This document shows, one piece after another, positions 13,216 through 27,292 of a stretch of 64,000 bases of DNA (within the stretch, counting starts at the first letter, position 1; each line of letters begins with the position of its first letter). The position numbers and the translations under genes are program-made. Origin of the DNA: Opitutia bacterium Tous-C4FEB (GTDB taxonomy: Bacteria; Verrucomicrobiota; Verrucomicrobiia; Opitutales; Opitutaceae); NCBI GenBank assembly GCA_002304445.1, contig NEVA01000017.1, positions 1 to 64,000 of the forward strand, in the 5' to 3' direction. The notes below the pieces were generated by a model. That model was not told the origin of the DNA. It searched no databases and saw nothing but the letters and a program-made list of their open reading frames with translations.

Positions 13216-13695
13216 ATGGACAAAGCCGCGCTGCGTCAGGCCATCCTCTCCCTGCTCGAAGCCGAGCTCGCCACGCTCACCGCCGCCGCGCACGACGCCC
13301 ACGCCGAGGCCACCGACGAGGAAAATCGCTCCGAGGATAAATACGATATGCGTAGCCAGTCGGCCGCCTATCTCGCCGCCGGCCAAGCCAAGCTCGCGAC
13401 GGAGCTCGGAGCCGCGATCGGAGCCTACCAAACGCTCGCGCTGCCCGCGTTTGGCCCCCGCGACGCCATCGCGACGGGCGCACTCGTGACTCTCGAAGTC
13501 GGCGGCGAACCGGCCGTTTATTTTCTCGGCCCGCACCGCGGCGGTCTCGAAGTTGTGATCGGTGGACAAACCGTCGTAGTCGTGACCGTCGCCTCGCCGC
13601 TCGGTCGCCAACTCGTCGGCCGCCACCTCGGCGAGAGTGTGATGCTACCCGGCCGCACCGGCCCGGCACTCCAAAAAATCAGCGCCGTCGCCTAA
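13216..13695 (+). CDS. GreA/GreB-like C-terminal domain protein
   Basis: A 159-residue protein from the ATG at 13216 (the frame is open upstream, but the translated sequence there is unconserved). The first 55 residues form a helical pair containing EENRSEDKYDMRSQSAAYLA, with acidic residues near a helix tip, as in Gre-factor coiled coils though shorter. The C-terminal part (VTLEVGGEPAVYFLGPHRGG, then SPLGRQLVGRHLGESV) has the SPLGRALLG-type signature of the GreA/GreB FKBP-like domain. It probably binds RNA polymerase or is a Gre-like regulator rather than canonical GreA. The short coiled coil makes transcript cleavage activity uncertain. Confidence 0.75.
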   Translation: MDKAALRQAILSLLEAELATLTAAAHDAHAEATDEENRSEDKYDMRSQSAAYLAAGQAKLATELGAAIGAYQTLALPAFGPRDAIATGALVTLEVGGEPAVYFLGPHRGGLEVVIGGQTVVVVTVASPLGRQLVGRHLGESVMLPGRTGPALQKISAVA

Positions 13696-13933
13696 ACCCT
13701 TTAGGCTGATCGGGGCACGAGGCTCCCCCGGTTACCACTCACGTCCGCCGGCTCACTTCGCCGCCGGGCTTAGCCCGTACGGCCGCCACGTTGTCTCTCA
13801 GCTGAGTGGGGGTTGTCCGAATCGCGCCCCACGGAACTGATCTCGCGGGCAAGCCGGCGGGGGCATTTTCGTCGCGCGAAAAAATTTGCCGACGAGTTTG
13901 GCGTTTCGCCCAAACCGCCACACGCTTCGCTCC

Positions 13934-14716
13934 ATGTCGTCCAGCGAAAATCCAACCGCGTCCCCCTCCGTTCCTCCCGTCATTCTCATCGCCGGCGTCA
14001 CCGGCGGCATCGGCTCCGCCCTCGCCCGCCGCCTCACCGCCGCCGGTGCCAACGTCGCCGGCTACGCCCGCAACGCCGATAAACTCGCCGCCCTGCACGC
14101 CGAGCTCCCCGCGCTGCTCCCCCTCACGGCCGATGCCACCCAACCCGCCGAGCTCGAAGCCGCGGTTGCCGCCACCGTCGCCCACTACGGCCGGCTCGAC
14201 GGCTACGTCCACGCCGTCGGCTCGATTGTGATCAAGGCCGCCCACCAAACCCGCCCCGAGGAATGGCTGCGCGTGCTCGACCTCAACCTCAACTCCGCCT
14301 TCTACGGCCTCCGCGCCGCCCTCGGACCGATGCAGTCGCAGAGCGCCGGCAGCATCGTCTTCATCAGCTCCGTCGCCGCCCAAGCCGGCCTGCCCGCCCA
14401 CGAAGCCATCGCCGCCGCCAAGGCCGGGGTCGATGGCCTCGTGCGCTCCGCCGCCGCCAGTTACGCGCCGCGCAACATCCGGGTGAACTCCGTCGCGCCC
14501 GGCCTCGTCGACACCCCGCTCGCCGCTCCGCTCCTTGCCAGCGAAGCCGCCCGCGCCTTCTCCGAAAAGATGCACCCCCTCGGTCGCATCGGCCGTCCCG
14601 ATCAGGTCGCAAGTCTCATCGCCTGGCTGCTCTCGCCCGACGCCGATTGGGTCACCGGCCAGACTTACTCGATCGACGGCGGCCTCGCCCACCTCCGCCC
14701 CCGGCCCAAGGTTTAA
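13934..14716 (+). CDS. SDR-family oxidoreductase lacking the catalytic tyrosine
   Basis: A 260-residue Rossmann protein from the ATG at 13934. The cofactor motif GVTGGIG lies at residues 21-27. The NAG-equivalent is replaced by AVGS, and the Ser strand [10 protein letters not shown] is present. The usual YxxxK is IAAAK within [10 protein letters not shown], so the catalytic Tyr is Ile while the Lys is kept. The [13 protein letters not shown] segment and the C-terminal GQTYSIDGG are standard. I recall [10 protein letters not shown]-type SDRs as a recurring subgroup, so this looks like a conserved deviation rather than decay, but the reaction is unclear. It lies 82 bp before the inositol oxygenase gene and is possibly co-transcribed. 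Confidence 0.88.
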
Positions 14717-14798
14717 TCCCGAACTCGCCAATCCGCCTTCCGCCATCGAAAATCGGGAATCGAAAATTGTAAGTCGAAACCCTTGGTTTGAAATCCCC

Positions 14799-15716
14799 AT
14801 GATCACCCCTTCCGACCCCGCCCCCGCCAGCGATCAACCTCTCGCGAGCCTCGACGAGTGGGAAGATTTCCTGAAGGACAAGTACCCCGAGCCCGCCCCG
14901 GCCCCCGCCCGCGGCACGCCCAGCGTTGGCACCGATCCCGACAAAAAGAAGGAAGATTTCCGCGTCTACGAAGCCGACGCCCGGCCCTCGGTCCGCGAAT
15001 TCTACCGGCTCAACCACACACACCAGACCCACGAGTTTGCCCTCGCCAAACGCCAAGAATTCCTCGGCCGCACCCGCCTCACCATGGGCATCTGGGAAGC
15101 CATGGAATATTTGAACCAGCTCGTCGACGACTCCGATCCCGACACCGATCTTTCCCAGCTCCAGCACCTCCTCCAAACCGCCGAGGCCATGCGCCGCGAC
15201 GGCCAACCCCGCTGGATGATCCTCACCGGCCTCATCCACGACCTCGGCAAAATCCTCTGCCTCTGGGGCGAACCGCAATGGGCCGTCGTCGGCGACACCT
15301 TTGCCACCGGCTGCGCGTTCTCGGACAAAAACGTTTTCCCGCAATTCTTCGCCGCCAACCCCGACAGCCAAGTCGCCCGCTTCCAGACGCCCAACGGCAT
15401 CTACGAGCCCGGCTGCGGTCTGGACAACGTCGTCCTCTCCTGGGGCCACGACGAATACATCTATCACGTCGCGAAAGACTATCTCCCGCCCGAGGGCCTC
15501 GCGATGCTCCGCTACCACAGCTTTTACCCGTGGCACCGCGAAGGCGCGTATGACCAATTCTGCACGCCCGCCGACCGCGCGCTCATGCCGTGGGTGCTGA
15601 AATTCAACACCTACGACCTCTACACCAAGAGCCACGAAGCCCCCGACGTCGCGAAGTTGAAACCGTATTACGAAGAACTCATCCGCGAGTTCTTCCCCGA
15701 AAAAGTCCCCTGGTAA
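14799..15716 (+). CDS. Inositol oxygenase (myo-inositol to D-glucuronate)
   Basis: A 305-residue protein from the ATG at 14799; a longer frame exists, but conservation starts after about residue 50. It matches the MIOX family: NHTHQTHEF near 72-80, WEAMEYLNQLVDDSDPDTDL near 99-118, HLLQTAEAMR near 123, LTGLIHDLGK near 142-151, EPQWAVVGDTF near 158-168. The six di-iron ligands of the mammalian enzyme have apparent counterparts at His123, His147, Asp148, His217, His240 and Asp273. The enzyme splits the inositol ring with O2 to give glucuronate. Bacterial copies are sporadic. No classical inositol dehydrogenase operon is present here, but exported Gfo/Idh proteins and an aldolase lie nearby. Confidence 0.93.
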   Translation: MITPSDPAPASDQPLASLDEWEDFLKDKYPEPAPAPARGTPSVGTDPDKKKEDFRVYEADARPSVREFYRLNHTHQTHEFALAKRQEFLGRTRLTMGIWEAMEYLNQLVDDSDPDTDLSQLQHLLQTAEAMRRDGQPRWMILTGLIHDLGKILCLWGEPQWAVVGDTFATGCAFSDKNVFPQFFAANPDSQVARFQTPNGIYEPGCGLDNVVLSWGHDEYIYHVAKDYLPPEGLAMLRYHSFYPWHREGAYDQFCTPADRALMPWVLKFNTYDLYTKSHEAPDVAKLKPYYEELIREFFPEKVPW

Positions 15717-15720
15717 AAAA

Positions 15721-15786
15721 GTAGGGCTGGGTCTCCGACCCGCCCTCGGCCCTCGGATCGCCAAAGTGGCACGGGCCTCTGGCCCG
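15721..15786. repeat. Two tandem intergenic hairpins at a convergent junction
   Basis: The first hairpin (15721-15750) is the GTAGGGC-GGGTC-loop-GACCCGCCC unit, also present at 41995-42020 and 58978-59002. The second (15772-15786) is a perfect CGGGCC/GGCCCG stem with a TCT loop. Both lie directly after the inositol oxygenase stop and before the 3' end of the minus-strand aldolase, where they could act as bidirectional terminators. Confidence 0.65.
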
Positions 15787-15963
15787 CGGGTTTTCGTTGG
15801 GAGTCAACCGCCCCCATCTCGCTCCCCTTGTCGGGCCGCCGCTCGTCGGCGCACTTTCCGCCTACGCTCCGACTGTTACCCATCACCCCGGACAGAGTGC
15901 CACCTATCTCTCCGAATCATACCCGGCGGCCACCTTTTGGTTAAGCCGCATAGGGGCCGAAGG

Positions 15964-16785
15964 TCAGGCGTAAGGCGAACGCACCGGCGGGCGGACATCG
16001 GCCGGCAATTCCGCGATGAGCCCGCGGACGAGGTCGAGGCGTTGTTTGACGTAGCCGGTGAGGGCGATGACATCGGCGCCGATGTTGATCACGCGGTAGC
16101 CTTCCTCGACCAAGGTCGCGAGCGGGGCGATGAGGCCGGCGGTCATGGCGAACTTGCCGTGTTGGCGGGTGGCGGCGGCGACGCGCTTGCGGGCCGCGAC
16201 GACCTCCGGCGCGTCGAGCTGGCCCGCCTTGCCGATGCGGTGACTGAAGTCACCTGGGCCGAAGAGGATGCCATCGAAGCCCGGCAGCGAACAGATTTCC
16301 TCGACGTTCTCCAGGGCCTCGGGCGACTCGATCTGCAGGATGACGATGCGCTCGGTGTTGGAATGCTGGATGTATTCTGCCATCGGCAGGAGGCAGAACT
16401 CGCCGTCGATATTTCCACCGTCGAGGGCGCGCTTGCCGATGGGGTGAAAACGCACCCAGTCGATGATCTGGCGGGCCTCGGCGCGGCTGGCGACGTGCGG
16501 GACGATGATGCCGGTGGCCCCGGCCTCGAGGGGGCGGATGTAATCGCTGTAGCTGCCGCGCCCGACGCGGACCAGCGTGTCGATGTTGTGGACGCGGGCG
16601 GCGCGGATCTGGTTTTCCAGGCCGATCCAATCATTGGGCACGTGCTCGGTGCACAGCCAGACGGCATCGACGCCGCAGAAACCGGCGATCTCGATGACGC
16701 GGGGCTCGGAGAGATTTACTTTGAGGACATTCGGGAGCTGTTGCTCGCGAAGAAGTTTCAGGATTCGGCTGGGACGTGCGCTCAT
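15964..16785 (-). CDS. HpcH/HpaI-family aldolase
   Basis: A 273-residue class II pyruvate-type aldolase. The N-terminus carries FCGVDAVWLCTEHVPND near 36-52, where the EH pair corresponds to the family base region. VRVGRGSYSDYIRPLEAGATGIIVPHVA near 72-100 follows the Arg and phosphate/pyruvate-binding segment. IESPEALENVEEI and GFDGILFGPGDFSHRIG near 150-185 contain the metal-ligand Glu and Asp. Such enzymes cleave 2-keto-3-deoxy sugar acids into pyruvate or tartronate semialdehyde plus an aldehyde. It is the last gene of a minus-strand catabolic cluster whose middle genes are truncated (16797-17084 and 19463-19759). Only 11 bp separate it from the fused ORF upstream. Confidence 0.9.
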   Translation of the reverse strand: MSARPSRILKLLREQQLPNVLKVNLSEPRVIEIAGFCGVDAVWLCTEHVPNDWIGLENQIRAARVHNIDTLVRVGRGSYSDYIRPLEAGATGIIVPHVASRAEARQIIDWVRFHPIGKRALDGGNIDGEFCLLPMAEYIQHSNTERIVILQIESPEALENVEEICSLPGFDGILFGPGDFSHRIGKAGQLDAPEVVAARKRVAAATRQHGKFAMTAGLIAPLATLVEEGYRVINIGADVIALTGYVKQRLDLVRGLIAELPADVRPPVRSPYA

Positions 16786-16796
16786 GATAATTGGGT

Positions 16797-17084
16797 TTAA
16801 ATTTCGGAGAGGAGAACTTCGCGGCCACCTGCGGCGCGACTGCGGATGCCGGCGATGACCAGTTGCATCAGCTCGACCGTCTCAGCAAAGGGGACGGGAC
16901 GCTCGCCGATGCGAAGGTAGGCGATGAAGGCCTCGAGCTGGGACTTGAAGGCGAAAAAGGTGTCGCCCGTGGGGACATTCACGTGGCCGGCTAGGTTTGG
17001 CGGGTGGATCTCGGACCCGTAGCAGCCGAGGGCATCGGTGCGGAGCCGGTCGCTTAGGATGAGCAGAATGTTTTGGCGGGACAT
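16797..17084 (-). pseudogene. Fused remnant: sulfatase N-terminus joined to Gfo/Idh oxidoreductase C-terminus
   Basis: A 95-residue open frame. Residues 1-33 (MSRQNILLILSD, then DALGCYGSEIHPPNLAG) match the very start of a type I sulfatase, including the first metal Asp region. Residues about 36-95 (FKSQLEAFIAYLRIGERP, then PFAETVELMQLVIAGIRSR ending LSEI) match the extreme C-terminus of a sugar oxidoreductase. Neither half could work alone, so an internal deletion removing most of two adjacent genes is the simplest reading. The ATG overlaps the symporter stop (TGATG), so it is probably still translated. A sequence assembly error is the main alternative. Confidence 0.75.
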
Positions 17085-19426
17085 CAAGCGGAGCCCGCCG
17101 GGCCGCGGGGGGGCACAGTCCAGATAGTGAGGCCGGTGAGCGGGCGACGCTGGCCGCCGGTGACTGCGCCGACCGCCAGCGAAACGACCCCACAAGTCAC
17201 GAAGCCGACGATGCCGTACCAAAAGAAATGAAGTCGGGTCGCCTGCTGCACCCAGACAAGGACGGCGCCGCTGGCGACCACCCCGGCGAGGGCCCCGGCC
17301 GCGTTCGCACGGGTGGTGAAGATTCCCAGCGCGAAGACCGCGGCCAGCCCGGTACCCATCAAGCCGACGAGGGCGATGTAGGCGTCGAGAAAGGATCGGA
17401 TATCCAGAGTCGTCAGCAGCAGTGCGAGGCCGGTGGTGGCGACGCCGAGGCCGGCAGTGGTGCCGCGGGCCCAGCGCAGGCGCGCGCGGTCAGACAGGCC
17501 CGGCCGACCCCGCTCGACAAAATCCGTCACCAACGCCGTCGCGCCGCTGTTGAGGTCGCTCGAGACGTTCGACTGTGCCGCGGCGAAGATGCCCGCCACC
17601 ACCAGCCCAGCCAAGCCCGCCGGCATGTGCTCGGCGACGAAGAACGGCAGCAGGGACTCGCCGGCGATCGCCGGGTGCAGGGCCGCCGGCTGGTGCTTAA
17701 AGAAAAGGTAAAGCCCGGTCCCAAGGGAAAAATACAGCATCGCTGACGGCAAGGCGAACAGCCCGTTTAGCCAGATTGCGCGCCGCGCCTGCGCCTCTTC
17801 CTTTGTCGTCAGGTACCGCTGGATCACGGATTGGTCGGAAGTATAGGGGACGAGGTTGTTGATCAGATTGCCGATAACGATGATCCAGGTCGTCGCCTGA
17901 ACCGCGCTCCACGACCAGTCGAAGAGCCGGAGCTTCCCGTCCGCGAGGGCCTCACCCACGAGAGCGGTGGCGCCGCCTCCGACGCCCCCTAGCACCGCCC
18001 CAAGGCAGAGCAGCGCGGCGGTCAGCATCACGGCCGACTGCAGCACGCTGGTCCAGATCGAGCCCTCGATCCCGCCTAGCACGGTATAGACGGTGCAGAG
18101 CCCGCCGATCAATAATACGCAGGCGACCACGTCGAGGCCGCAGACAACGGCGAGGGCCAGCGAGGGCAGGTAGGTCACGATGGCGACGCGCCCGAGCTGA
18201 AAGCAGACGAACACTAGGCTGGCGTACGCGCGCAGGGCGAAATTGAAGCGCCGCTCCAAGTACTCATAGGCACTCGCGACCTCGAGCCGGCGGAAGAACG
18301 GCAGGTAAAATCTAATGATCACCGGCGTCAGCAGCAGGATCGTGAGCGGCGCGAGCAGGAAGGTCCAGTCGGTGGCAAAAGACTTCGCAGGCGCTGCTAG
18401 CACAGTGATCGAACTGAGGGTGGTCGCGTAGACGCTGATGCCGGCCGCCCACCAAGGGATCCGGCCATCCGCGAGGAAGTAGCTGCGCGCGTCCCGCGCG
18501 CGCCGCATGAAGTACGCGCCTAGACCCAACATCCCGACGAGGTAGGCGCCCAAGGTCGCGTAGTTGGCCACGCCGAACTCCGGCCTGCGCGGCGCAAGTG
18601 TGAGCAGGCCCGCGGTCCGCGCCCCGGCTGGACCGATCGCCGCGGCTAGGCCCGCCCCGGCCGCGGGGCCAGCTGGAACCACCCCGGACGCGAGCGCGTG
18701 CGCGGCCCACGCTCGGGTAACCGGATGCCAGAGCAGAAGGAGCCCGGGCTCGCCGGACGCCGCAAAGCCGAGGTGCGCCGCGCCTACCCGCGCGGCGACG
18801 AGCTCCACCGGCACCGGCTCGTCCGTGGGGCTCAAGTGCTCCCGCCAGGTGTCGCCCACGCGCTGCCAAAGAGACCATCGCGCCCCGGCAGCGACGGCGA
18901 GGACCAGTCCGTCGCGGCTGGCGACCAGCGCGAGCGGTCGGGCATCCGCCGGGACGGGCGGCCGAGGCTCCTCCGTCCAACCGTCGCCCGCGCCTACGCG
19001 GCCCCAAACGCGGACGGCCCCGTCCTGCACCGCGGCGGCGAACAAGTCGTTGCCGGCGCCGGCCGCTAGCACCGGCTGGCGGGCCCCCGGGGCGGGCACC
19101 GGCACGGCGGCTCCCGCCGTGGCGTAAAGTGCGCGCCAGACGCCGGCCGCGTCGATCTCAGCCACCAGAAAACCAGAGGCCAGCGGCAGGATCGGTCCCG
19201 GCGTCCCTTCAACCCGCGCGGCTTCACGCTCCGGGCCGCCGGGAGCGGAAACCCGAGCAGTCCAGCCGCCCGGACCGACCGCGAGTTCGAGGCGCTCGCC
19301 GCGGCCGTCGAGGGCGAAGCGGGGCCCGCCGGACCAAGGCGCGCCGTCGACCGTAAAGGCCGGAGGGGTGGCCAGCGCCGGGGCGGCGGCGAGTAGTGCG
19401 GCCAGCAGTGCGACCCGGGCGGCCAT
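17084..19426 (-). CDS. Sodium:solute symporter with large N-terminal periplasmic domain
   Basis: A 780-residue protein from the ATG at 19426, chosen because it begins a clean signal peptide (MAARVALLAALLAAAPALA). Residues about 25-300 are a Gly/Ala-rich beta domain with repeated WSLWQRVGDTWREH-like strands, probably a propeller or lectin-like sensor. From residue about 305 comes an SSS-family transporter core of roughly 13 helices: YFLADGRIPWWAAGISVYAT, AYEYLERRFN, LGGIEGSIWTSVLQ, VPYTSDQSVIQRYL, FAAAQSNVSSDLNSGATA. The last motif lies in the sodium-site region. It likely imports a sugar or sugar acid with Na+. The frame is open upstream into a TonB-receptor remnant. CTAG tetranucleotides are unusually frequent here, hinting at a different origin from neighbouring DNA. 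Confidence 0.88.
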   Translation of the reverse strand: MAARVALLAALLAAAPALATPPAFTVDGAPWSGGPRFALDGRGERLELAVGPGGWTARVSAPGGPEREAARVEGTPGPILPLASGFLVAEIDAAGVWRALYATAGAAVPVPAPGARQPVLAAGAGNDLFAAAVQDGAVRVWGRVGAGDGWTEEPRPPVPADARPLALVASRDGLVLAVAAGARWSLWQRVGDTWREHLSPTDEPVPVELVAARVGAAHLGFAASGEPGLLLLWHPVTRAWAAHALASGVVPAGPAAGAGLAAAIGPAGARTAGLLTLAPRRPEFGVANYATLGAYLVGMLGLGAYFMRRARDARSYFLADGRIPWWAAGISVYATTLSSITVLAAPAKSFATDWTFLLAPLTILLLTPVIIRFYLPFFRRLEVASAYEYLERRFNFALRAYASLVFVCFQLGRVAIVTYLPSLALAVVCGLDVVACVLLIGGLCTVYTVLGGIEGSIWTSVLQSAVMLTAALLCLGAVLGGVGGGATALVGEALADGKLRLFDWSWSAVQATTWIIVIGNLINNLVPYTSDQSVIQRYLTTKEEAQARRAIWLNGLFALPSAMLYFSLGTGLYLFFKHQPAALHPAIAGESLLPFFVAEHMPAGLAGLVVAGIFAAAQSNVSSDLNSGATALVTDFVERGRPGLSDRARLRWARGTTAGLGVATTGLALLLTTLDIRSFLDAYIALVGLMGTGLAAVFALGIFTTRANAAGALAGVVASGAVLVWVQQATRLHFFWYGIVGFVTCGVVSLAVGAVTGGQRRPLTGLTIWTVPPRGPAGSA

Positions 19427-19462
19427 GCGCCGGAAAGCTTTGGGGGCGGGAGTCACCACGCA

Positions 19463-19759
19463 GAACCTCCAGGAAAGCGACATCTGCGCAGTGGGCCGCG
19501 CGCTGGGTTCGATGTTGTTCGCGCCTGTCGAGCTGGTGTTGTAGATCTCATCTGTAAGGTTGCGGGCGGAGACTGCGGGGGACCAACGTGCGCCGGCGTC
19601 ACCCCCGATCGCGTCGACGGTGGTGTAGCCGGGCGCGTTGGGCCCGGTCGGGTAAAAGAGGACGCCGCGGTGGACGGCGCAAGCGCCAACATAGAACCCC
19701 TTGAGCGCACCGCGACCTACAGTGTATTTCGCCCAGAGGCTGGAGGCCTGACGAATCAA
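19463..19759 (-). pseudogene. C-terminal remnant of a TonB-dependent receptor
   Basis: About 99 residues of open frame preceded by an in-frame TAG and beginning at a TTG. The sequence has SLWAKYTV, GALKGFYVGA, APGYTTVDAIGG, VSARNLTDEIYNTSS and a terminal LSWRF, which is the last beta-strands of a TonB-dependent outer-membrane receptor ending in the characteristic Phe. The barrel, plug and signal peptide are missing. After the final Phe the expected stop is replaced by TGC, so the frame runs on 12 codons into the symporter start at 19426. It was probably once the first gene of the catabolic cluster. Confidence 0.72.
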
Positions 19760-20028
19760 CTACCGCCCGGAATACCGGAAGTCGTCAGGATGCAGAAGTG
19801 AATGGAACGAAATGGGATTCGGTCGTGGTCAATTTAGAATCCAACTATCCACCATGCCATAATTTTTGAATTTAGCTCAGCCTCTCTGCAGTGATCTCCC
19901 GAAATTCGACGATCACTTAAATTATTGTATTTCATGAGTTTTAAAAAGACATGGCGCTACTCCACGCCGAAAGACCCTCACTTGCATCTCTTCGGGATCG
20001 AGCCATGTTTCCCAAAGTCCCCTGTTTT

Positions 20029-20481
20029 ATGCTCTCACGTATCTTCTTATTCGCAGCCTTACTCACCCTCGTCTTGGCGATGACCGGATGCAGCACTATC
20101 GATAGCCGCATCCGCGAAAAGTCCGCCGTCTTCGCGGCTCTCGATGCGCCTACGCAGGACAAAATCAGACTCGGCCGCATCGAAGTCGGGTTCTCGACGG
20201 ACCTCGTCTATATGTCCCACGGGGCGCCCGATGAGCGCCTCACGACGACGAGCGCCACGGGCACCGACGAGACGTGGATCTACAACAGCTACCGCCAAGA
20301 ATATCTCGGTTCTGCCCTCGTCGGTTATCGGCGTTACGTCGTGATCGATCCCAAGACCCGTCAGCCCATCGTCTACTTCGAGCCGGTCTATGACTCAATT
20401 TATCGCGAACGGGTCGAGGAACGCATCCGGATAATTTTCAAAGGCGGCAAGGTCGAGGCGATCGAACAGGTCAAACGCTGA
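20029..20481 (+). CDS. Small lipoprotein, SmpA/OmlA-like
   Basis: A 150-residue protein from the ATG at 20029, chosen because it gives a standard lipoprotein signal: Arg near the start, a hydrophobic core, and LAMTGC as lipobox with Cys at about residue 20. An upstream ATG at 20005 is in frame. The mature part has IRLGRIEVGFSTDLVYMSHGAPDE, like the BamE/SmpA fold in which a short helix pair precedes a beta-sheet, then TDETWIYNSYRQEY. It is predicted to be anchored in the inner or outer membrane facing the periplasm. Its 3' end overlaps the convergent aat gene by 11 bp. The AT-rich stretch at 19850-19950 is the likely promoter region. Confidence 0.78.
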   Translation: MLSRIFLFAALLTLVLAMTGCSTIDSRIREKSAVFAALDAPTQDKIRLGRIEVGFSTDLVYMSHGAPDERLTTTSATGTDETWIYNSYRQEYLGSALVGYRRYVVIDPKTRQPIVYFEPVYDSIYRERVEERIRIIFKGGKVEAIEQVKR

Positions 20482-21163
20482 GCGGCGGGAACAACTCACG
20501 GCCGACGCCAATCTCCTTCGCCAGCCCGGCCAGAAACACGGCGCGCGTCACCTCACGCGCACCGAGCCGTGCCAGGTGGGGCGTGAGTTGCTGGATATCC
20601 ATCCACGCCTGGCCGCGCTCGCGCAGATAAGTCGCGAGAAACCAGATCGCCAATTTCGAGGCGTTATCCACGCGGTGAAACATGCTCTCCCCGCCAAAAA
20701 AACCGCCCGCATCCACGCCGTAAAGTCCGCCGACCAAATCCTCTCCCTGCCACACCTCGACGCTGTGCGCCTGCCCCGCGCGATGCAGCGCAGTGTAGGC
20801 CTCGAGCACGGCCGGGCTGATCCAAGTGCCTTCTTGTTCGGGCCGACTGGCCGCGGCACACGCTGCGATCACGGCCGGGAACGCGCGGTCGATCGAGTAA
20901 CTCCAACCGCTTTTGCGCGCGGCTTTTTCCAGGGTGCGCCCGGGCGTAAGCTCATCGAAAACCAACACCGCCCGCACGCGCGGACAACACCAGGGAATCG
21001 GCGCGGTGACGCCGCCGGGCCACGGAAAAATCCCCCGGCGATACGCCGCGCGGAGATTCTCCACGGTCAACGCCGTCGCATCGCTGCTCGCGACGACCTC
21101 GCGTCCGCGCGCCAGCGCCGCACCCTCGGGAAAGATTAACGTTGGCCTCAGCACCGATCGCAC
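20471..21163 (-). CDS. aat: Leucyl/phenylalanyl-tRNA--protein transferase
   Basis: A 230-residue protein matching Aat, which adds Leu or Phe to N-terminal Arg/Lys of proteins to create N-degrons for ClpS/ClpAP. Signature motifs: AAYRRGIFPWPGG near 39-51, PIPWCCPRVRAV near 55-66, WISPAVLEAYTALH near 114-127, and VGGLYGVDAGGFFGGESMFHR near 143-163 followed by DNASKLA. The start is a GTG at 21163; another in-frame GTG three codons in is equally possible. It is co-oriented with gpsA and lysA, 30 bp after gpsA, so a shared transcript is plausible. Confidence 0.93.
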   Translation of the reverse strand: MRSVLRPTLIFPEGAALARGREVVASSDATALTVENLRAAYRRGIFPWPGGVTAPIPWCCPRVRAVLVFDELTPGRTLEKAARKSGWSYSIDRAFPAVIAACAAASRPEQEGTWISPAVLEAYTALHRAGQAHSVEVWQGEDLVGGLYGVDAGGFFGGESMFHRVDNASKLAIWFLATYLRERGQAWMDIQQLTPHLARLGAREVTRAVFLAGLAKEIGVGRELFPPLSV

Positions 21164-21193
21164 TTCCTGAACTTCCTCTGCTCCCCTGCCCGC

Positions 21194-22195
21194 TTACTCG
21201 CGTTTCAGCCCGCGCAACATCAGCGTGTGCAATGCGAGCGCCGGCGCTTTGCCCTCAAACAGGATGGCGTGCATCTCACGCAAAATCGGGGCGTCGATTT
21301 TCCGCTCCACGCATAGGCCGTGAAACGACTCGGTGGTCCGGTAGCCTTCGACGACGGTCTTGCGGTGCGCGATCAGCTCGGCGGCGCTCCGACCTTCGCC
21401 GATGCGTTGGCCAAACTCCCGGTTGCGACTCCACGCGCCGTGGCAGGTCGCCACGAGATCGCCGAATCCACTCAGGCCGTAGAACGTCTCGGGCCGGGCG
21501 CCGAGCGCCGAACCCACCCGGACCATTTCGGCGAGCGCCCGGGTCAGGAGCGCAGCATTGGCGTTGTCACCGAGCCCGAGACCGGCCGCACAACCCGCCG
21601 CGATGGCGTAGATGTTTTTCAGGCAACCGCCGTATTCGACGCCGGCCAAATCATCGCTCGTGTACACCCGCAGCGTCGGCCCGCTCAGCGCCGCCTGCAC
21701 GTCGGCCAGCCATGCCTGCGCATCGCTCCCGGCCCCCAGCACCATCGCGGCGGGCAAACCGCGCGCGACCTCAGCCGCATTCGTCGGGCCGGTCAGCGCA
21801 CCCGCCGGGACATCGGGCTGCACGGCGGCGATGACCTGCGCCGGCCGCAGATGCGAGCCGACCTCCAGGCCCTTCGACAAACTCACCACCAATTTCAACG
21901 GCGTGCCCTTGCCGCGCGCCGCCAGCACCCGGGCGGAGGTTTCCCGCAAGGCCTGAGACGGGCAGGCCAGCAAAACGACGGTCGATACGCCGAGAGCCGC
22001 CGAGAGATCGGCCGTGATCACCAACGACTCGGGCAACGCGACCCCGGCAAGATAGTCCCGGTTTTCCCGTGTCGCCAAAAGCGCCGCCGCCTGCTCCGGC
22101 CGGCGTGGCACGAGCACCACGGGCCGGCCCAGCCGCGCGAGATGCACCGCAAACGCAGTGCCCCAAGCTCCGGCTCCGACGACGCAGAATTTCAT
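21194..22195 (-). CDS. gpsA: Glycerol-3-phosphate dehydrogenase [NAD(P)+]
   Basis: A 333-residue cytoplasmic enzyme that reduces dihydroxyacetone phosphate to sn-glycerol 3-phosphate for phospholipid synthesis. The Rossmann motif GAGAWGTAFA lies at residues 7-16, the cofactor-specificity region VPRRPEQ near 29, and SLSKGLE near 107. GPTNAAEVARGLPAA near 135 and EYGGCLKNIYAIAAG near 187 contain the catalytic Lys. The C-terminal domain has ETFYGLSGFGDLVATC. Length is normal for the family. It sits between aat and lysA on the same strand. Confidence 0.95.
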   Translation of the reverse strand: MKFCVVGAGAWGTAFAVHLARLGRPVVLVPRRPEQAAALLATRENRDYLAGVALPESLVITADLSAALGVSTVVLLACPSQALRETSARVLAARGKGTPLKLVVSLSKGLEVGSHLRPAQVIAAVQPDVPAGALTGPTNAAEVARGLPAAMVLGAGSDAQAWLADVQAALSGPTLRVYTSDDLAGVEYGGCLKNIYAIAAGCAAGLGLGDNANAALLTRALAEMVRVGSALGARPETFYGLSGFGDLVATCHGAWSRNREFGQRIGEGRSAAELIAHRKTVVEGYRTTESFHGLCVERKIDAPILREMHAILFEGKAPALALHTLMLRGLKRE

Positions 22196-22208
22196 GGGCG
22201 GAAACCAA

Positions 22209-22287
22209 CCACGGAAAAACGCGGATGGACACGGATTTCTTTTCTCGCCGGGGATCCGTGGGTAACCGCGTTCATTTCCGACCGTGG
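22209..22287. repeat. Imperfect palindromic intergenic element
   Basis: CCACGG ends (22209-22214 and 22282-22287) flank imperfect complementary arms containing CGCGGATG and CACGGAT versus ATCCGTG and CGCGTTCATTTCCG. The wording (CACGGAAAAACGCGGATGGACACGGAT) belongs to the type of short intergenic repeats common in Verrucomicrobia. It lies between gpsA and lysA. Confidence 0.5.
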
Positions 22288-22291
22288 AATC

Positions 22292-23596
22292 TTACTTCAA
22301 AAACGCCGGGATTTTTTCGTTGGCGATCATCGACTCGAAGCTCTCGCGCGCATTCACCAACTCAAACGCACTACCCTGCACCATCACCTCGGCCGGCAGC
22401 GCGCGGGTGTTGTAGCGGCTCGACATCGTCGAGCCATAGGCGCCGGCACTCATGAACGCGATATACTCGCCCTCGCCCACTTCCTGGATTTGCCGGTCCT
22501 TGGCGAAGCAGTCTCCGCTCTCGCAGATCGGGCCGACCACATCGGCAACGAGCGCGCGGCGGGTGGTATCGCGGTGCAGCGGCACGATTTCGTGGAAGGC
22601 TTCATACATCGCAGGGCGCACGAGGTCGTTCATCGCGGCGTCCACGATGAGGAAACTCTTTCCGGAGCCACGCTTGAGGTGCTCCACTTTGGACAGGAGC
22701 ACGCCGGCGTTACCGACCATGAAGCGGCCGGGCTCAAGCAGAATCTTAAGCCCGAGCGGCTGAAGCAGGGGCACGAGCGCCGCGCCATAAGCTTCAGGCG
22801 TGAGCGGACGCGTCCCGGCGGGCTGGGCGTCCCACCAAGCGGCGCTGCCGCTGGCGAGAGCGTCTTTATAGACGATACCGATGCCGCCGCCGATCGAGAA
22901 ATAGGTGATGCCATACTTCGCCTTCAACTCGGCCGCGAAGGGCGCGACTTTGGCCACGGCCTCGGCAAACGGCCCGACTTCGGTGAGCTGCGAACCGATG
23001 TGCATCTGCACGCCGCGCAGCTGGATGTTGGGATATTTCGACGCGGCTTCGTAGGCGGCGGCGGCGAACTTGAGCGGGATGCCAAATTTGTTGTCGCTCT
23101 TGCCCGTCGTGATCTTGGCGTGCGTGTGGGCGTCGACATCGGGGTTGATCCGGATCGCGATGGGCGCCTTCACCCCGAGTTTGCCCGCGACGTGGTTGAT
23201 GCGGGCGAGCTCGGGTTCGCTCTCGACGTGGAACGAGAAAATCCCGCTCTCCAATGCCAGCTGGATTTCGGCCTCGGTCTTGCCGACGCCGGCAAAGACG
23301 CTGCGCTTCACATCCGCACCGGCGGCCAGCACGCGGCGCAGCTCGCCTCCGCTCACCAAATCGAACGCTGCGCCCAACTTTGCGAAGTGGCGGAGCACGG
23401 CGAGACCCGAGTTGGCCTTCATGGCGTAGCAGATCTGCACATCCAGCCCGTTCAAACTGCCGGCCAACCGGTTGTAGTTGTCCGCCATCGTCGCCGCGCT
23501 CGTGACGTAGGTCGGCGTGCCGTAGAGCCGGGCGACCTCGGCGAGATCGACCGACTCGCAGTTTAGATTCTGACCAATGTAGCGGAAATGATGCAT
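22292..23596 (-). CDS. lysA: Diaminopimelate decarboxylase
   Basis: A 434-residue PLP enzyme from the ATG at 23596 (the open frame upstream is unconserved). It decarboxylates meso-diaminopimelate to lysine. YAMKAN near residue 57 holds the PLP-binding Lys; SGGELRR and HVESEPELARI follow. HIGSQLTEVGPF near 198 and GGGIGIVY near 238 bind the phosphate. EPGRFMVGNAGVLLSKV near 296 follows, and CESGDCFAKDR near 365 holds the conserved Cys/Glu-Asp pair of the dimer active site. AYGSTMSSRYNTR near 400 closes the fold. All key elements are present, so the enzyme should be functional. Confidence 0.95.
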   Translation of the reverse strand: MHHFRYIGQNLNCESVDLAEVARLYGTPTYVTSAATMADNYNRLAGSLNGLDVQICYAMKANSGLAVLRHFAKLGAAFDLVSGGELRRVLAAGADVKRSVFAGVGKTEAEIQLALESGIFSFHVESEPELARINHVAGKLGVKAPIAIRINPDVDAHTHAKITTGKSDNKFGIPLKFAAAAYEAASKYPNIQLRGVQMHIGSQLTEVGPFAEAVAKVAPFAAELKAKYGITYFSIGGGIGIVYKDALASGSAAWWDAQPAGTRPLTPEAYGAALVPLLQPLGLKILLEPGRFMVGNAGVLLSKVEHLKRGSGKSFLIVDAAMNDLVRPAMYEAFHEIVPLHRDTTRRALVADVVGPICESGDCFAKDRQIQEVGEGEYIAFMSAGAYGSTMSSRYNTRALPAEVMVQGSAFELVNARESFESMIANEKIPAFLK

Positions 23597-23784
23597 GGGA
23601 ATTAAAAGGGCGGGAAAAGCCGACACGGTGCGAGTTTCGCCTTGAAAAAACCAATCCAAAATTGCGTGTTTGCCTCATCGTGCTGCGTTTTCTTGCCAAC
23701 CTCCTCCACCGCCCCGCCATCCGCTTCGGATTGGCCCGGGATCGCCGTGGCAGTCGGCTGCGCGATCCGAGGTTCGTCAGTTTT

Positions 23785-23937
23785 ATGGCGCAAAGCAATC
23801 GGAGGTCCCTCGATACCGATTTGCAGGACACCCTGTTGCGCGGCCGCAAGCTGGTGCGTCACGCCGTCGTCGCGGCGGCCATCGCCGGGGCGGCTTGGTT
23901 TGCGATCGAGAGCGCCCAGGCGCTTTCAATATTCTGA
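23785..23937 (+). CDS. Small single-pass membrane protein
   Basis: A 50-residue protein from the ATG at 23785. A charged N-terminus (SNRRSLDTDLQDTLLRGRKL) is followed by one hydrophobic segment (VVAAAIAGAAWFAIESA), giving an N-in single-pass topology. The frame is open further upstream to 23662, but that part is arginine-rich and looks like read-through of non-coding sequence. It is 44 bp upstream of a lipoprotein gene and may share its transcript. I recognise no named family; the call rests on the plausible topology and composition. Confidence 0.5.
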   Translation: MAQSNRRSLDTDLQDTLLRGRKLVRHAVVAAAIAGAAWFAIESAQALSIF

Positions 23938-23981
23938 GCGCGGCCTTGCGATTTGGCGGGGGACCGACTTGCCTCAGGCCC

Positions 23982-24476
23982 ATGTCGAATCACTCCCCTT
24001 TCAAGCGGTGTATGGGCCTGTTGCTTGGTCTTTGCGTCATGACCTTCGTCGCCGGCTGTGGCAGCGGCTTCAAACTGACCGGCGTGACCGTCAGCCTCGT
24101 CGATATCAAGCCCGCCGAGGCGACCGTGCTCGAGTCCAGCGCGGTGCTCACGCTGCGCTACTCCAATGAAAACGTGATTCCGATCGGGCTCTCAGGTTCG
24201 AGCCACAAAATCTATCTCAACGGCAGCTACGTCGGCAAAGCGCTCAGCAAAGACCCGGTTGGTCTCGCGGCGCTCACCAGCACCACGCAGGACGTGACGG
24301 TGCGATTCGAAAATCTCGCCCTGATGCGGCAATTCGTCGCGATGCGCGAACGGCAAACCGCCGCTTACAAAATTGAGAGCGTGCTTTACGTGACGAGCGG
24401 CGAGGAGGAATTGAATATCAAGACCTCCAACTCCGGCAGCGTCGATCTGCGGGCGCTCACCTCGGCCGCGAAATAA
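23982..24476 (+). CDS. LEA14-like (type 2 LEA) lipoprotein
   Basis: A 164-residue protein from the ATG at 23982. The signal ends in VAGC, a lipobox with Cys near residue 27, predicting a lipid anchor. The mature domain is a single beta-sandwich of the late-embryogenesis-abundant type 2 (WHy) family: GVTVSLVDIKPAEATVLESSAVLTLRYSNENVIPIGLSG is the diagnostic first half, followed by KIYLNGSYVGKA. Bacterial members are periplasmic, and their function (stress or envelope binding) is not established. It is convergent with sdhB. Confidence 0.82.
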   Translation: MSNHSPFKRCMGLLLGLCVMTFVAGCGSGFKLTGVTVSLVDIKPAEATVLESSAVLTLRYSNENVIPIGLSGSSHKIYLNGSYVGKALSKDPVGLAALTSTTQDVTVRFENLALMRQFVAMRERQTAAYKIESVLYVTSGEEELNIKTSNSGSVDLRALTSAAK

Positions 24477-24543
24477 GCCCGACACAGGGTGACAGCCGGA
24501 CGGGCGGCTCGCAGAGACGTCCCGACCGACCCACCTGAAACGC

Positions 24544-25356
24544 TTAAGCCCCGCCGCCACCCGTGTTGGCGGGCGCGGCCCTGAAGGCGGAACGAAACGA
24601 AGCCTTCACGTAATCACGGTTCATCCGCGCGATGAAATCGTGCGAGATGAGTTTGGGGCACGCGGCGCTGCACTCGTATTGATTGGTGCAACTGCCAAAA
24701 CCAAGTGTGTCCATCGTGTTCACCATCGCGAGCACGCGGCGGTCGCGCTCGGCTTGGCCTTGCGGCAAAAGACCGAGGTGGGAAACTTTGGCCGAGACAA
24801 AGAGCATCGCGCTGGCGTTTTTGCAGGCGGCGACGCACGCACCGCAACCGATGCACTGCGCGGCATCCATCGCGAGGTCGGCGTCACCCTTCGCAATCGG
24901 CAGGGCGTTGGCGTCGGGCGCGGAGCCCGCGCGCGCGGTGATAAAGCCGCCGGCTTGCTGAATTTTGTCGAACGCGGCCCGATCGGTCACGAGATCCTTG
25001 ACGACGGGAAACGCCCGCGCCCGGAACGGCTCGACGACGATGGTATCACCGTCGCTGAACGAGCGCATGTAGGTCTGGCAGGTGGCGATACCTTTGCCGG
25101 GGCCGTGAGGCTTGCCGTTGATCGTGCAAGAGCACGTGCCGCAGATACCCTCGCGGCAATCATGGGCAAAAGCGATCGGCTCGACGCCTTGCGCCGCGAG
25201 CTCGTCGTTGACCACGTCGAGCATCTCCAAGAACGACATGTTCGGGTTGAGATCCTTTGCGGGATAATCGACGAACTTGCCCGGCTGCGCGGGGCCGGCC
25301 TGACGCCAGACGCGGAGGGTGACGGAGAAAAGTTTCTGGGTGTTTACGGCGACCAT
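24544..25356 (-). CDS. sdhB: Succinate dehydrogenase/fumarate reductase iron-sulfur subunit
   Basis: A 270-residue subunit that relays electrons from FAD to quinone. The [2Fe-2S] site is CREGICGTC near residues 67-75 with a fourth Cys near 92. The [4Fe-4S] and [3Fe-4S] sites lie in [13 protein letters not shown] near 168-180 and [13 protein letters not shown] near 222-234. The missing first Cys of a canonical second cluster (Asn-Gln-Tyr-Glu-Cys spacing) fits the [3Fe-4S] type. It is the last gene of sdhCAB, 16 bp after sdhA. The Gly-rich C-terminal tail GGGGA is unremarkable. Confidence 0.95.
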
Positions 25357-25372
25357 GGTGGACAGGGATGGA

Positions 25373-27292
<1,920 letters not shown>

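Follow-up and report, generated by a model that had tools for sequence, protein, structure and literature searches.

A 95-residue open reading frame in an Opitutaceae genome, probably a recently formed fusion pseudogene where fragments of two catabolic operons meet

We analyzed a window of 64,000 nucleotides from Opitutia bacterium Tous-C4FEB (bases 1-64000 of contig C9), taken from a draft genome of 3.76 Mb in 39 contigs that is 96.33% complete with 0.96% contamination. Within this window, a slot contains two operon fragments: part of a TonB receptor-symporter-sulfatase operon, interrupted at either end, and, joined to it, the tail end of an oxidoreductase-aldolase operon; the open reading frame (ORF) studied here runs across that join. 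Sulfatase 1 and sulfatase 2 denote the first and second sulfatase genes of the symporter operon, and the features are:

15871-15923, plus strand: a copy of a 53-nt dispersed repeat; the sequence shared with genome G010 on the left ends with its final base
15924-20082, no strand assigned: the variable slot, with a length of 4159 bp; between these two conserved flanks, G010 has 15667 bp of other genes
15964-16785, minus strand: intact gene of a 273-aa HpcH/HpaI-type aldolase (PF03328, E 9.9e-28; 92% identical to that of genome G001)
16797-17084, minus strand: the fusion ORF of 95 codons, with its ATG at 17084-17082 and its stop TAA at 16799-16797
16797-16991, minus strand: third piece of the ORF, the last 64 codons and the stop of a Gfo/Idh-like oxidoreductase gene (homology ends at 16991)
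16992-17016, minus strand: second piece, 25 nt, residues 24-31, best matched by sulfatase 2 of the same operon (from alignment and shuffles)
17016-17084, minus strand: first piece, codons 1-23 of sulfatase 1 (end of DNA homology at 17017)
17084-19459, minus strand: intact sodium:solute symporter gene (PF00474, E 7.8e-31; the SSF part 92% identical to that of locus L049)
19463-19761, minus strand: remnant of a TonB-dependent receptor, its last 98 residues (residues 620-717 of the L116 receptor, 77% identity)

The original prediction held that the ORF begins as a sulfatase and ends as a Gfo/Idh-like oxidoreductase, and comparison with relatives confirmed both halves: residues 1-23 are 91% identical to intact sulfatase 1 in L049 and L051 (78% in L050), and for residues 32-95 the identity is 81% to the C-terminal end of a 319-residue, intact protein in G001 (a genome of the same genus) and 88% to the corresponding end in G097. 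It was also right that the ATG shares a base with the symporter stop (TGA at 17086-17084, the last base of which is the first of the ATG, giving TGATG); the sequence across the symporter stop and the ORF start is ...GCTTGATGTCC, and there are 11 nt between the stop of the fusion ORF and the ATG of the aldolase gene. The sulfatase profile PF00884 matches ORF residues 4-32 at its positions 1-30 of 301, with 12.6 bits for the whole ORF (E 0.082) and 15.5 bits for residues 1-33 alone (E 0.011), both below the curated cut-off of 25; the intact L049 sulfatase scores 170.6 bits (E 6.3e-50). Residues 34-95 alone matched no Pfam family at E 1, and the nucleotide-binding Rossmann domain PF01408 was not matched in the fusion ORF by profile search. 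The C-x-P-x-R motif is the catalytic segment of S1 sulfatases; CTPSR is present in the intact sulfatases of L049, L050, and L051, and absent from the 95 residues. The fusion ORF retains neither parent’s catalytic machinery. The predicted structure of the 95-residue peptide has a mean pLDDT of 59, with confidence limited to two helices that belong to the oxidoreductase tail, and on this basis a stable micro-protein was rejected; the model of the intact oxidoreductase (mean pLDDT 51) was too poor for a structure search.

The borders of the three pieces were set by DNA homology. The junction had been placed near 16985, which was not borne out: homology to the oxidoreductase-aldolase side ends at 16991 in four relatives (L079, L080, L113, and L114), homology to the symporter and sulfatase ends at 17017 in three (L115, L116, and L117), and a third piece of 25 nt lies in between, which together rule out a two-piece fusion at 16985. 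For the less similar L081 and L082, the oxidoreductase-side match fades earlier, at 16817 and 16858, respectively. Sulfatase 1 was rejected as the source of residues 24-31, since the match to sulfatase 1 of L049, L050, and L051 stops abruptly past residue 23, and it is sulfatase 2 that matches, with 20 of the 25 nt identical in L049 and L051 and 19 in L050. One of 500 shuffles of the 25-nt piece reaches 20 in L115, and the 11 sulfatase loci of the same genome that were compared (several overlapping one another) reach at most 16 of 25. When the 14 preceding nt are included, the match is 33 of 39 in L115 and L117, 32 in L116, and 30 in the best sulfatase of the genome itself; because the latter comes to 30 versus 33, the second sulfatase of the symporter operon is probably, not certainly, the donor of the piece, as judged against these 11 partly overlapping loci. 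Both sulfatase genes carry a similar stretch at this point, CTCGG(C/T)TG(C/T)(C/T)ACGG, which is a natural recombination point between neighboring sulfatase genes. At the main join (16991/16992), the sequences of the parents share no stretch, by eye, that would be able to mislead an assembler.

Relatives of the symporter were drawn from 15 loci. Three of them (L049, L050, and L051) are the closest, with symporters 80-90% identical to that of the window, and the closest named matches are metagenome-assembled genomes of Opitutaceae (L049 and L051) and Verrucomicrobia (L050); the remaining loci either show much lower similarity or have their match elsewhere. In all three close relatives, the symporter gene ends in the same TGATG, which runs into an intact sulfatase of 494 residues, and a second sulfatase gene then follows sulfatase 1 in the symporter relatives. 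The start of the symporter gene was taken as the GTG corresponding to the start in L116, the listed ORF being open to 19759. On the far side, homology to the receptor ends mid-gene at 19761, and L116 is the one relative that reaches that far. In L116, the symporter start directly adjoins the receptor stop (TGA GTG). The window reads TGC in place of this TGA, because of which the remnant frame continues into the symporter frame. The resulting 891-residue ORF (17084-19759, minus strand) is, from this alignment, read as a receptor remnant plus the symporter frame and not as one protein. None of the 12 same-genus genomes searched for the symporter has one above 44% identity, which points to an origin of the symporter block outside the genus. 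Within its own genome, no other close copy was found of sulfatase 1 (at most 36% identity among the matches listed that cover most of the protein; shorter stretches reach 47%), of sulfatase 2 (49% at best among the matches listed), or of the front part of the receptor (at most 36%, in partial stretches). The genome is very rich in sulfatases: a single sulfatase query matches it in 141 places at E 0.01.

The second parent operon is seen in G001, where the intact 319-residue oxidoreductase gene precedes the aldolase gene that is 92% identical to that of the window. Searched against PF01408, two of four oxidoreductase relatives score above the cut-off and two just below it, and profile matches in the PDB are two dehydrogenases, both weak (E 0.0012 and 0.0076). 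The 319-residue parent is a divergent Gfo/Idh/MocA-like protein. In a survey of 40 loci (20 per search, own genome included), the oxidoreductase and aldolase genes lie on one strand, the oxidoreductase gene first, 16-82 nt apart (counting the stop codon within the gap), in 12 of the 13 other genomes with both genes in the surveyed loci; the exception is G017, in which the pair is on opposite strands about 1.5 kb apart. The oxidoreductase tails in these 13 genomes are 40-81% identical, and some may be paralogues. Beyond this set of loci, G096 has both genes, but its aldolase (L114:5200-6010, contig C137) matches in three pieces in different frames, and may be broken or misassembled; in G097, there is no aldolase match past the oxidoreductase in the 1.1 kb remaining on the contig. 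Judging from these two genomes, the parent pair itself would not be universal. The genome under study has no other close copy of the oxidoreductase (best 29%) or of its DUF455-like neighbor (best 28%). In the aldolase operon of G001, a 428-residue protein (L079:3470-4756) with a DUF455 match just below the cut-off sits between two oxidoreductase genes, and its relatives adjoin the oxidoreductase gene in L113 and L114 too. From a reading of the sequence, a transposase-like ORF lies 3′ of the oxidoreductase gene in L113, and another near the operon in L081.

The slot itself is a variable site of the chromosome. In G010, a sister genome of the same genus, the flanks 13489-15923 (95% identity) and 20083-25897 (94%) are both found on contig C6, with their order and orientation conserved. 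Among the genes in the slot of G010 (L146 and L163), between the inositol oxygenase and lipoprotein genes, PADLOC models and Pfam pick out defense-like ones: a DrmMI/type IIG-like methylase and two helicases, one DpdE-like (SNF2) and the other DruE-like. The 53-nt repeat at the left has many copies in G006, four of which (C51, C243, C384, and C377) are within about 200 bases of contig ends, a placement that would fit the end of a repeated element, and perhaps is an insertion-sequence end that marks the left border of the slot; we offer this as a suggestion, because the copies in G010 (C96) and G001 (C207) are contig-internal and no transposase was recognized near copies in the gene lists of G010, G001, and two G006 stretches. 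Past the inositol oxygenase gene, at about 15715-15750, there is also a short repeat (AGTAGGGCTGGGTCTCCGACCCGCC) with dozens of copies in this and related genomes. On the right, at 20029-20083, the conserved lipoprotein gene diverges from that of G010 at the signal peptide, just before the lipobox, and the border of the slot lies inside this gene. A blastn search of 15924-20082 gave no match in either a plasmid or a phage collection, and carriage by a plasmid or phage on record was rejected. Similarly, an Rfam scan of 15600-20500 gave no match at gathering scores, and a non-coding RNA at the seam was rejected.

We searched 252 genomes of the family (own genome included) with the 95-residue query at E 1e-8. 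Seventy of them match, and only the genome itself covers residues 1-95 (in the other 69, the listed matches start at residue 15 or later), so that the expected absence of full-length homologues was upheld. The dN/dS of the 64-codon tail is 0.12 against G001, 0.21 against G033, 0.06 against G097, and 0.26 against G096 (0.07-0.46 among those four). Low values of this kind fit a recent event and would also fit a retained function; they do not separate past from present constraint. Of the two outcomes proposed earlier, a recent event agrees with the low dN/dS of the remnant, and a retained micro-protein has no positive support. The coupling to the symporter had been taken as a sign of a recent event or of retention; the TGATG overlap is inherited, as seen in all three relatives, and says nothing about retention. 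In the oxidoreductase tail of the window, the two alternative frames run into stops after 3 and 35 codons, and in G001 one alternative frame is open throughout; the joined frame would thus be open by chance in about one case in three or somewhat more. On the minus strand from the symporter gene to the aldolase gene, we found two weak terminator-like sites, at 18132-18117 (inside the symporter gene) and 16977-16964 (inside the fusion ORF), and no sigma-70 promoter-like site between the two genes; the totals for the region are 8 terminator-like sites versus 3.5 (sd 2.1) in shuffles, and 2 promoter-like sites versus 0.4. On these findings, which are not proof of one transcript, we rejected the idea that a terminator or a sigma-70 promoter sets the aldolase gene apart from the symporter gene.

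We consider it likely that the ORF is a fusion pseudogene of recent origin, formed where fragments of two catabolic operons came together in a variable slot (a hotspot) with the symporter and aldolase genes left intact on one strand. The order of events that we infer starts with the neighboring sulfatase genes of the first operon, which would have recombined at the similar stretch, encoding LGC(Y/H)G, with homology preserving the frame. Next, codon 31 of this hybrid would have been linked, by a join that lacks shared sequence, to the final 64 codons of the oxidoreductase gene, whose original frame would have been kept by chance (about one in three). The leftover frame would be translated, if at all, by way of the stop-start coupling inherited from the symporter gene, its peptide most likely has no activity, and the event may have put the aldolase gene behind the symporter gene on one transcript.

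The explanation favored earlier was a single deletion between adjacent genes, in which the lineage once had the symporter and its sulfatase(s) directly before the oxidoreductase-aldolase pair, and lost the middle in one step. Both partners do lie on one strand with the joined frame open, and the hybrid of sulfatases 1 and 2 could have arisen by one further deletion within the operon. However, an intact sulfatase-oxidoreductase pair was sought in relatives and none of the nine loci compared holds both operons; the third piece does not fit with one deletion, the second broken end at 19761 would be left unexplained by it, and the lack of a symporter above 44% identity in all 12 same-genus genomes also speaks against it. 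Moreover, the two operons are on different contigs in G096 (symporter-sulfatase operon on C18, oxidoreductase on C137) and in G097 (C17 and C206, respectively), two genomes that, from matching coordinates, appear to belong to genus g7 of the same family. These contigs are 43, 8.5, 32.6, and 13.7 kb long, and on them direct adjacency is excluded, and great distance is not proven; in whole-genome searches of G096 and G097, no oxidoreductase match was found on the symporter contigs, which run about 27 kb beyond the second sulfatase. G095 has the symporter-sulfatase operon as well, and its oxidoreductase match is only 31% identical. We therefore regard the single deletion, which was not borne out by these comparisons, as improbable.

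An assembly artefact, in which the assembler joined fragments of different organisms or loci, is made conceivable by the draft state of the genome (39 contigs), by three joins within 2.8 kb, and by partner genes that are otherwise absent from the genome (for sulfatases 1 and 2, among the matches listed). It is nonetheless an unlikely explanation, because both outer flanks are conserved on one G010 contig, which makes the slot a natural variable site, and because no shared stretch is seen, by eye, at the main join; in addition, the receptor remnant has lost the stop of L116 by a point change, as in aging DNA (one relative compared). The last alternative is that the 95 codons have been kept, either to carry ribosomes from the symporter to the aldolase gene or for an active peptide. 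The open frame with its overlap at the symporter stop and its 11-nt distance to the aldolase gene, the low dN/dS, and the early closing of the other two tail frames would all suit this reading, but a search of the 251 other family genomes found the same make-up in none, the structure prediction is poor (mean pLDDT 59, as above), an in-frame join has about a one-in-three chance, and all the constraint seen can predate the event. We find retention of this kind very unlikely. Equally hard to credit is its fullest form, in which the chimera would be a newly born bridging cistron that brings the aldolase under symporter transcription and translation, with the middle gene serving only as a ribosome conveyor in a new operon; if this held, it would show an operon being born in nature by fragment fusion.

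As a probable fusion pseudogene, the ORF makes it possible to trace clearly how, in a sulfatase-rich relative of Opitutaceae, a variable slot is built from fragments of broken operons, and shows how a small, gene-like open frame can be only a seam. For annotation, the ORF should be named neither a sulfatase nor an oxidoreductase, and the upstream 891-residue ORF should not be read as a single protein.

Fusion pseudogenes and gene remnants occur at rearrangement seams in bacterial genomic islands. The ORF resembles these in that pieces of intact genes are joined at a breakpoint, with the active-site parts gone and in one genome only; unlike them, its seam is in frame, the inherited overlap with the symporter gene is kept, and between its two main parts lies a short piece that a second sulfatase probably supplied. 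Compared with S1-type sulfatases (PF00884), residues 4-32 match the start of the profile, but the remaining ~460 residues are missing, including the CTPSR segment of the intact relatives. Similarly, residues 32-95 have their counterpart at the end of a divergent member, 319 residues long, of the Gfo/Idh/MocA-like oxidoreductases (PF01408 and relatives), whereas the whole nucleotide-binding part of such enzymes is lacking. Finally, the symporter/fusion boundary has the same geometry as known stop-start overlap systems; in the window, this geometry is inherited from the intact symporter-sulfatase pair, and the coupling is putative.
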